This document shows positions 34,601 through 35,725 of a stretch of DNA of 64,000 nt, piece after piece; position 1 is the first letter of the stretch, and each line of letters begins with the position of its first letter. The stretch spans positions 1 to 64,000 of the forward strand of contig ONOE01000001.1 of assembly GCA_900319365.1 (NCBI GenBank), in the 5' to 3' direction. The translations under genes were made by a program, and so were the position numbers. This DNA is from an uncultured bacterium (GTDB lineage: Bacteria; Cyanobacteriota; Vampirovibrionia; Gastranaerophilales; Gastranaerophilaceae). The notes beneath the pieces were generated by a model. The model did no database searches. It saw only the letters and a program-made list of their open reading frames with translations, and was not told where the DNA came from.

Positions 34601-35725
34601 ATGGAAATTTTGCAATCCGCAACGACTAAACTTAATAATAAAATAGAATTATACGGGGAGGACAAGCAGGATAACAATGTACTTGTTATCGGGGTTTTCC
34701 ACGGCGACGAACCGCAAGGAAAATATTTAATTGAAAAGTATATTTATAGCCCCTCTCCTGCCTTTCAGGCATCCTCTCCCCAAAGGGGCGAGGGAAAGCG
34801 CTTTTTGCATACTCACAACTACACAAATTTTGCAAATTCCGTAGCCAAAGAATTAAGAAAAAATTCAACTGATGCCGAACGTATATTGTGGAGCATTTTA
34901 AAAAATGGACAATTCTTTGGTCTGCATTTTAAAAGACAACAGCCTATCGGTAATTATATTGCGGATTTTGCATGTATGAAAAAAAAGATAATAATTGAAC
35001 TTGACGGCAGTCAACATGATGAAACAAAAAGTATTGAATATGACAGGAAAAGAACTCAATGCCTTAATTCATTAGGGTTTCAGGTTATCAGAATATGGAA
35101 TAATGACATTTTTAATAATTTAAACGGAGTTTATGAACACCTGTTTAATATTTTAAAAAAAGACAAGAATATTAAACAAAAATTCCTTCGCCCCCTTGGG
35201 GAGAGGATGTCCGTAGGACAGGAGAGGGGCTATATACAACACAACAAGCTCCTTTTCCTACCCTGTTTAAATCCTGACGGTATGCAAAACAATACAAGGA
35301 CAAATTCCAACGGTGTTGATTTAAACCGTAACTATCCGACAAAAAACTGGGGGCAAGACACAAGCGCAGCAGGCAACAACCCCGCAGATTATTTCGGCGG
35401 AAAATCGGCAGGAAGTGAAATTGAAACTAAATTTGTACTTGATATTATCGAAAAATACAAGCCGAAATTAATTTTGGCATTGCACGCACCATATAAGGTC
35501 GTCAATTATGACGGTCCCGCAGAAAAATTTGCTAAAAGTATTTCAAAAATCATCGGCTACCCCGTCGAAGCAAGTATCGGCTATCCGACCCCTGGGAGCT
35601 TTGGCACATACTGCGGAGTAGAGCGAAATATTCCTACCATAACTCTTGAATTGGACGAAGAAATACCGATTGCCCAATTAGAACAACCGGTATTTGAAAT
35701 ATTTGATTATCTTTCTGATTGTTAA
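34601..35725 (+). CDS. MpaA-like M14 carboxypeptidase interrupted in frame by a DUF559 nuclease domain
   Basis: Residues 1-48 and about 212-374 together form an MpaA-like zinc carboxypeptidase (gamma-D-glutamyl-mesoDAP peptide amidase group). Zinc ligands His34 and Glu37 are in FHGDE. LNPDG, DLNRNYPTKNW, the third zinc ligand in LALHAPY, and catalytic Glu in TLELDEE are all kept. Between them, codons 49-211 encode repeat-derived sequence and a DUF559 PD-(D/E)xK-like domain (ELRKNSTDAERILWSIL, then PIGNYIADFAC, then IIIELDGSQHDE). The insert keeps the frame. I start at ATG 34601, after ftsY's stop. A TTG at 34805 with gaggga upstream could start the nuclease alone. Confidence 0.9.
   Translation: MEILQSATTKLNNKIELYGEDKQDNNVLVIGVFHGDEPQGKYLIEKYIYSPSPAFQASSPQRGEGKRFLHTHNYTNFANSVAKELRKNSTDAERILWSILKNGQFFGLHFKRQQPIGNYIADFACMKKKIIIELDGSQHDETKSIEYDRKRTQCLNSLGFQVIRIWNNDIFNNLNGVYEHLFNILKKDKNIKQKFLRPLGERMSVGQERGYIQHNKLLFLPCLNPDGMQNNTRTNSNGVDLNRNYPTKNWGQDTSAAGNNPADYFGGKSAGSEIETKFVLDIIEKYKPKLILALHAPYKVVNYDGPAEKFAKSISKIIGYPVEASIGYPTPGSFGTYCGVERNIPTITLELDEEIPIAQLEQPVFEIFDYLSDC
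34745..34796 (+). repeat. Left inverted hairpin repeat of the DUF559 element
   Basis: Begins tatagcccctctcctg, then a TGCCT-TTC-AGGCA stem-loop, then cctctcccc-aaa-ggggcgagg. It matches the reverse complement of 35183-35234 at 45 of 52 positions. Its last bases supply a Shine-Dalgarno-like gaggga. Confidence 0.93.
34747..35234 (+). mobile_element. DUF559 nuclease element inserted in a peptidase gene
   Basis: Boundaries are set by the inverted repeats at 34745-34796 and 35183-35234. The cargo is one nuclease domain. If the segment between tatttat and atacaacac is removed, the peptidase reads through in frame in a surface-loop position between HGDE and LNPDG. No target-site duplication longer than a few A/T bases can be seen. 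Confidence 0.75.
35183..35234 (-). repeat. Right inverted hairpin repeat of the DUF559 element
   Basis: On the minus strand it reads tatagcccctctcctg, then a TGTCC-TAC-GGACA stem-loop, then cctctcccc-aa-gggggcga. Four of its seven differences from the left copy are two compensated base pairs in the first stem. Confidence 0.93.

Follow-up and report, generated by a model that had tools for sequence, protein, structure and literature searches.

The components that meet at the locus described here, namely DUF559 proteins, PIT/TM repeats, EDxHD nucleases and the in-frame palindromes of Rickettsia, are each known singly. PIT/TM intrastrand-triplex repeats were described by Holder and colleagues from Escherichia coli and over 260 bacterial genomes; in E. 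coli the copies were reported to be always intergenic and unconnected with mobile elements, and their loci are unusually variable (PMC4666352). The text of that paper does not mention an endonuclease. I-Bth0305I, which stems from a phage group I intron, represents the EDxHD family of homing endonucleases (PMC3943268). Rickettsia palindromic elements (RPEs; Ogata 2000, as summarized in the review PMC10969869) measure about 150 bp and encode a short peptide and, as far as described in that review, no known enzyme. VsrA of Caulobacter, which contains a DUF559 domain, is needed for a DNA-damage response in cells without a cytosine methyltransferase and was proposed to be a mismatch endonuclease; these data are evidence that DUF559-type proteins can damage DNA in vivo (PMC12907096).

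Here, we analysed a window of 64,000 nucleotides from an uncultured gut bacterium of the Gastranaerophilaceae, in which a DUF559 nuclease gene is inserted into a peptidase gene. The insert is probably a single copy of a small and widespread mobile element, which consists of a DUF559 nuclease gene between inverted PIT/TM hairpins and would spread in a homing-like manner. With EDxHD homing genes (PMC3943268) it shares a related fold, a patchy occupation of fixed sites and an element less diverged than its flanks, but it has no intron or intein and no extra DNA-binding domains, is flanked by hairpin repeats and resides in bacterial chromosomes instead of phage. The usual housing of a homing endonuclease gene is a self-splicing intron or an intein, or it is free-standing; searches showed neither intron nor intein here, and the nuclease gene lies instead between hairpin repeats, in frame in the host gene. 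As in REP/BIME repeats with RAYT (PMC3733652), an enzyme gene is placed between inverted palindromic repeats, and solo and paired repeats are scattered in the same genomes; the enzyme, however, is a hydrolytic PD-(D/E)xK-type nuclease and not an HUH tyrosine transposase, and the repeat family is a different one. The simpler arms match the published PIT/TM consensus (PMC4666352), and one listed E. coli repeat adjoins a DUF559 gene, but here the repeats bound a nuclease gene, occur inside proteins and in many cases carry a second hairpin. RPEs, by their description in the review, are likewise palindromic DNA that is translated in frame in host proteins, as are the solo repeats in prmA and the peptidase gene; these solo repeats correspond to an RPE-like state, and it is the nuclease aboard that sets the present element apart. 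Vsr and VsrA (PMC12907096) share the fold, but a true vsr adjoining a cytosine methyltransferase is present separately in the window genome (L004), without such arms. Unlike an insertion sequence, the window element encodes no DDE or HUH transposase, DUF559 being the sole enzyme aboard in a Pfam search, and a comparison of empty and occupied prmA genes showed no target-site duplication. We found no paper in the open-licence PMC literature that joins DUF559, PIT/TM repeats, EDxHD nucleases and in-frame palindromes, although a description elsewhere is possible.

The fused gene and its hairpin arms

The initial annotation had recognized an MpaA-like peptidase with all motifs intact, split by a DUF559 insert that keeps the frame and is translated through both repeats. 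Both statements were borne out by Pfam and by the single open frame (Table 1): the fused frame matches Peptidase_M14 (Pfam, E=3e-16), its two ends match MpaA (NCBIfam, E=6e-30) and its middle matches DUF559 (Pfam, E=7e-38; 132.8 bits vs a curated cut-off of 20.6). The insert is thus real, but the range that had been given for the element is that of the whole fused gene, the element itself measuring ~490 nt (34745-35234). Pfam and Rfam searches of the insert gave no intein (Hint splicing domain), no intron and no Rfam match. A defence-system search returned weak matches only, and a defence system was rejected as its identity.

Table 1 Features of the fused peptidase-nuclease gene in the window
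Feature	Position	Strand	Basis
One continuous reading frame of 374 aa: M14 peptidase (MpaA-like) with DUF559 nuclease inserted in frame	34601..35725	+	
Peptidase N-terminal piece; HGDE motif; ends KYLIEKYI	34601..34744	+	orthologue alignment
Left arm of inverted repeat, PIT/TM-like; encodes YSPSPAFQASSPQRGEG	34745..34796	+	
Hairpin A, left arm (TGCCT-ttc-AGGCA); compensated vs right arm	34759..34771	+	
Hairpin B, left arm (CCTCTCCCC-aaa-GGGGCGAGG), G/C-rich	34773..34793	+	
DUF559 nuclease domain (PF04480; Vsr-like/EDxHD-like PD-(D/E)xK fold)	34835..35155	+	
Putative active-site residues D122, E133, D135, H139 (374-aa numbering)	34964..35017	+	conservation
Right arm of inverted repeat, hairpins A' and B'	35183..35234	-	
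Peptidase C-terminal piece; LNPDG, DLNRNY, ALHAP, LELDE	35235..35725	+	Pfam, orthologue alignment

The two arms are inverted copies of 52 nt that match at 45 positions (87%), as first noted. Positions 17/25 and 19/23 account for four of the seven differences and form two compensated pairs in one hairpin stem, in agreement with the earlier reading, and position 21 lies in the loop of this hairpin. Each arm can be divided into two hairpins, of which A is short and variable and B is rich in G and C. The core of hairpin B has two matches in the window, vs 0.08 expected by chance, and a search with this core found no arm-like sequence elsewhere in the window. The suggestion that the hairpin structure itself is under selection gains support from one sub-family of arms, in which 18 of 20 distinct arms have a full 7-bp A hairpin and nine different stems occur in all, so that structure is kept while sequence changes. 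Where two element copies are near-identical (97.7% over 484 bp), the match ends at the outer ends of the arms. Many arms, in the genus and in other phyla, directly match the PIT/TM consensus CCCTCNCCC N3-6 GGGNGAGGG N3 GGGNGAGGG; those of the window are a two-hairpin variant with a degenerate match to it.

A profile built from 37 sequences of the nuclease matched the Neisseria DUF559 structure 3hrl best (E=6e-41), followed by I-Bth0305I (3r3p, E=8e-6). Foldseek gave the same ranking, with I-Bth0305I at E=9e-5 and Vsr close behind. By these profile and fold comparisons, the nearest characterised relative of the DUF559 nuclease is the homing endonuclease I-Bth0305I. Across the 37 diverse sequences E133, D135 and H139 are invariant and D122 is nearly so. 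The profile search of the PDB also gave matches to the B chain of cholera/LT toxin (E about 0.01-0.1), which were set aside as chance similarity of short strands. Foldseek also showed a Vsr/DUF559-like fold in mitochondrial ribosome proteins of Toxoplasma and Tetrahymena (9i05, 9g6k, 6z1p). In the AlphaFold model of the whole window protein, which is of only moderate overall quality (mean 74, pTM 0.55), the nuclease domain is predicted with confidence (pLDDT mostly 86-96), and residues 53-71 and 193-212, encoded mostly by the arms and the adjoining linker, are unstructured. This is the picture expected of an insertion that is tolerated in a loop and held there by flexible Pro/Gly-rich linkers.

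Besides the copy in the peptidase gene, the 1.95-Mb genome of the window has two more full DUF559 copies. One is inserted in frame in prmA, in an open frame of 471 aa (PrmA E=3e-66, DUF559 E=3e-35), and is also bounded by two-hairpin inverted arms; the other is free-standing beside pdxJ and its arms are degraded.

Occupied, repeat-only and empty sites in related genomes

We compared the peptidase site in 44 of the 46 genomes of the genus. Eleven are occupied in frame in the same loop, seven have a repeat or its remnant but no nuclease, and the remaining 26 are empty. The nuclease is also borne by two contig-end cases (L044, L045), one of which (G014) is among the 26 because only its C-terminal half, on a separate contig, was scored. 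Every measurable spacing is a multiple of three and no stop codon intervenes. The uninterrupted orthologues that had been anticipated do exist, and the nuclease is not a constant, repeat-free part of the peptidase; at this hypervariable loop, however, neither a base-exact empty site nor a target-site duplication could be read off. At the prmA site, 29 genes are empty with an identical spacing of 72 nt, four contain full elements and another four contain solo palindromes, which belong to at least two repeat families, and all of these keep the frame; prmA of L269 has a longer spacing with no recognisable repeat. The counts at these two sites show that a fixed point may be occupied by an insertion, hold a solo repeat or be empty. 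The type of repeat at one site differs between hosts, and the arms in G044 and G033 are reversed with respect to the nuclease. Separately, the same loop of the peptidase gene of G025 (L042, about 800-910) holds an insert of roughly 110 nt that is palindromic and in frame but lacks a nuclease; in this insert, inverted CCCCCTCTCCCTAACCC arms surround a different GC-rich core.

The three states are scattered over the peptidase tree, on which 'occupied' requires nine changes, at least six of them forced by well-supported branches. The nuclease tree conflicts with that of the hosts: it groups copies of non-sister hosts, and four prmA copies nest among those of the peptidase site. At the orthologous locus of G021 and G020, element and arms are 99.6% identical vs 80% for the flanks (p=2e-33). 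Similarly, identity in the peptidase gene of G023, G006 and G020 is 98-99.6% for the element and 91-95% for the flanks (p 3e-9 to 1e-6), with a dS of 0.02-0.06 for the nuclease vs 0.29-0.43 for the peptidase. The pattern in these alignments is that of an element spreading between species into the same places. An old domain fusion is ruled out by the empty sister species and the conflicting trees; on sequence grounds, the insert is shown to be a mobile element, being bounded, frame-keeping and polymorphic at fixed sites. The nuclease is under purifying selection, in-gene copies included, since its dN/dS is 0.07-0.35 in all informative pairs except one very close pair (0.44, from a handful of changes).

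Further in-frame copies were found in mfd, priA, hsdS, valS and ispE and in the genes of an MmeI-like enzyme, an HI0933-like flavoprotein and a UvrD-type helicase. Copies at gene ends occur in a radical-SAM gene and in cca, the N-terminal DUF559-cca fusions being weaker cases of in-frame insertion, as the nuclease may use its own start codon there. Searches of two genomes found no valS or ispE other than the interrupted ones, from which we infer that ValS and IspE must function with the nuclease inside. No ATG of its own is present within the 20 codons before the domain in 19 of 24 in-gene copies, compared with 5 of 54 intergenic ones (p=2e-9), so that most in-gene nucleases appear to be made only within the host protein.

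Some of these loci showed additional features. In the Rickettsiales genome AM-377-L16, the frames of valS and mfd (L158, L188) contain, besides the nuclease, additional peptides encoded by repeats. Translated palindromes may be abundant in this genome, and it could form a link between the repeats described here and RPEs. The nuclease in the UvrD-type helicase (L089, 4054-8508; also L088 and L090) stands amid several translated repeats (PPIACGDFPLKGGRN...) of another arm type, the copy number of which varies between species. In four genomes (L107, L112, L121, L095), nuclease elements have recurrently inserted at the 3' end of a gene whose product ends in AVNSIK/AVSSIK or AVKEIG.

DUF559 genes and PIT/TM repeats outside the order

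The initial annotation had proposed a search for the arms beside other DUF559 genes, and most of these turned out to be flanked. We sampled 80 DUF559 loci from one-per-species genomes, choosing those most similar to our alignment, and scored the inverted similarity of the two 250-nt flanks against placements of the same geometry elsewhere in the same loci; one locus with masked (N) flanks (L225) was excluded from the final statistics. Outside the order of the window, matching inverted arms were present at 43 of 56 DUF559 genes and at 16 of 945 controls (p=2e-50), a fraction that, given this choice of loci, is not an unbiased one; at a stricter threshold the counts were 35 of 56 and 3 of 945. 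The enzyme-plus-repeat unit thus occurs in many bacterial groups, and a repeat family long regarded as orphan DNA probably has a partner enzyme.

In E. coli, TM_ECO no. 9 (MG1655 1,351,204-1,351,239) lies 168 bp from ycjD, the DUF559 gene of this species; the 3' end of ycjD is overlapped by another PIT-like arm, in inverted orientation (L141:1205-1240 and 1397-1421, corresponding to MG1655 1,351,204-1,351,421). The published TM_ECO list contains one of these two repeats and leaves the neighbouring DUF559 gene unmentioned (PMC4666352). As both arms are on the 3' side of ycjD, the E. coli copy seems to be rearranged or partly degraded and is not cleanly flanked. Among 5,426 complete E. coli genomes, 3,362 (about 62%) have ycjD together with this region. 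A clean empty site was not obtained in this species, strains without ycjD having another island beside fabI. PIT polymorphisms of E. coli at adk-hemH and yjdP-phnP were likewise discarded as evidence of target duplication, being replacements or deletions.

Within the genus, the number of repeats per genome rises with the copy number of the nuclease (Spearman 0.61), also when two arms per copy are subtracted (Spearman 0.39, p=0.007). Repeats outnumber nucleases in many genomes, and solo repeats lie at scattered loci with unrelated flanks. In one species (G005) the repeats are strongly expanded, to 71 short PIT-type palindromes; these are ~30-nt solo repeats at scattered loci (L277-L296), whose tails resemble the arms of the resident nuclease element L103.

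Possible modes of movement and their implications

A homing endonuclease gene is the best functional analogy for the element, because of its relation to I-Bth0305I and its recurrent occupation of the same sites. The nuclease would cut the site where it is still unoccupied, or would cut DNA at hairpin repeats, and repair of this break would copy the element in, as with a homing endonuclease gene. The arms would form the structural ends and, translating without stops, serve as Pro/Gly-rich flexible linkers, so that an in-frame insertion into a surface loop may be tolerated and the host enzyme may then contain the nuclease as an internal domain. If the nuclease were lost, a solo repeat would be left, and solo repeats may thus be non-autonomous forms. 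The in-frame rule is partly a matter of survivorship. Different repeat families at one site and the reversed arms of G044 and G033 are more than simple homing predicts. It also counts against homing that a donor and an empty allele are normally required together in one cell, whereas the nuclease is rarely carried by phages and plasmids (5 of 50,697 phage records and 43 of 72,556 plasmid records).

The main rival to homing is a transposition of the REP/RAYT kind, which we hold to be rather unlikely: here the nuclease would be a single-strand nickase or transposase acting on hairpin ends, PIT repeats would be both these ends and MITEs mobilised in trans, and no homing would take place. Such a process would fit the matching hairpin arms that bound each nuclease, the conservation of hairpin structure under changing stem sequence, the solo repeats at unrelated loci and the rise of repeat number with nuclease copies, but it does not predict that the same sites are hit repeatedly and that identical elements lie in diverged orthologous sites, which is the pattern of homing. 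To our knowledge, moreover, nucleases of the PD-(D/E)xK/Vsr fold hydrolyse DNA and have no strand-transfer step, which also counts against it. Of the minimal nuclease-carrying repeat element that the initial annotation had envisaged, the mobility and the likeness to RPEs fit well, and in place of its comparison with RAYT-type transposases we prefer a homing gene with REP-like ends. That the repeats are passive recombination hot spots, between which the nuclease is carried along by homologous recombination, appears improbable to us; the unusual variability of PIT/TM loci in E. coli (PMC4666352) and the excess of repeats over nucleases in many genomes would agree with it, yet it would explain neither one nuclease family between inverted arms in so many phyla nor the purifying selection on this nuclease inside unrelated enzymes.

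Two further explanations concern the nuclease as part of its host protein. It is very improbable that a Vsr-like domain has here been domesticated for repair or defence and serves the host from a useful position in the peptidase, even if the DNA-damage function and proposed mismatch cleavage of Caulobacter VsrA (PMC12907096) would suit such a role. A clade-wide fusion without repeats would then be predicted, whereas in the genus occupation is patchy among sister species, flanking repeats are present and solo repeats occupy the same sites, and the hosts are as unrelated as valS, ispE, priA, mfd and prmA. Hardly any weight can be given to the idea that splicing or ribosome bypass (intein, intron or byp-like) removes the insert and leaves the peptidase uninterrupted: base-pairing of the 52-nt arms could bridge the insert in the mRNA, but no intein, intron or Rfam match was found, most of the nucleases inside genes lack a separate start codon, and every copy and solo repeat at both sites keeps the frame and is free of stops, which removal would not require.

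A homing-like element between hairpin ends therefore remains our preferred reading. More tentatively, PIT/TM triplex repeats and DUF559 nucleases may together make up an undescribed, phylum-crossing class of mobile elements with its own mode of movement, based on the action of a hydrolytic nuclease on hairpin or triplex ends; some lineages of this class would be specialised as translated domain insertions inside essential enzymes, without splicing. The nuclease is a candidate mobilising enzyme for a repeat family of hundreds of bacterial genomes that has so far had no partner, and mobilisation is a likely role for DUF559, a family of unknown function that includes E. coli YcjD. A mobile gene that persists as a translated domain in single-copy enzymes such as ValS and IspE, without splicing, would be an unusual way for selfish DNA to live in essential genes. 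As ycjD is carried by E. coli K-12 and many other strains of the species, the idea is directly testable in a laboratory strain.
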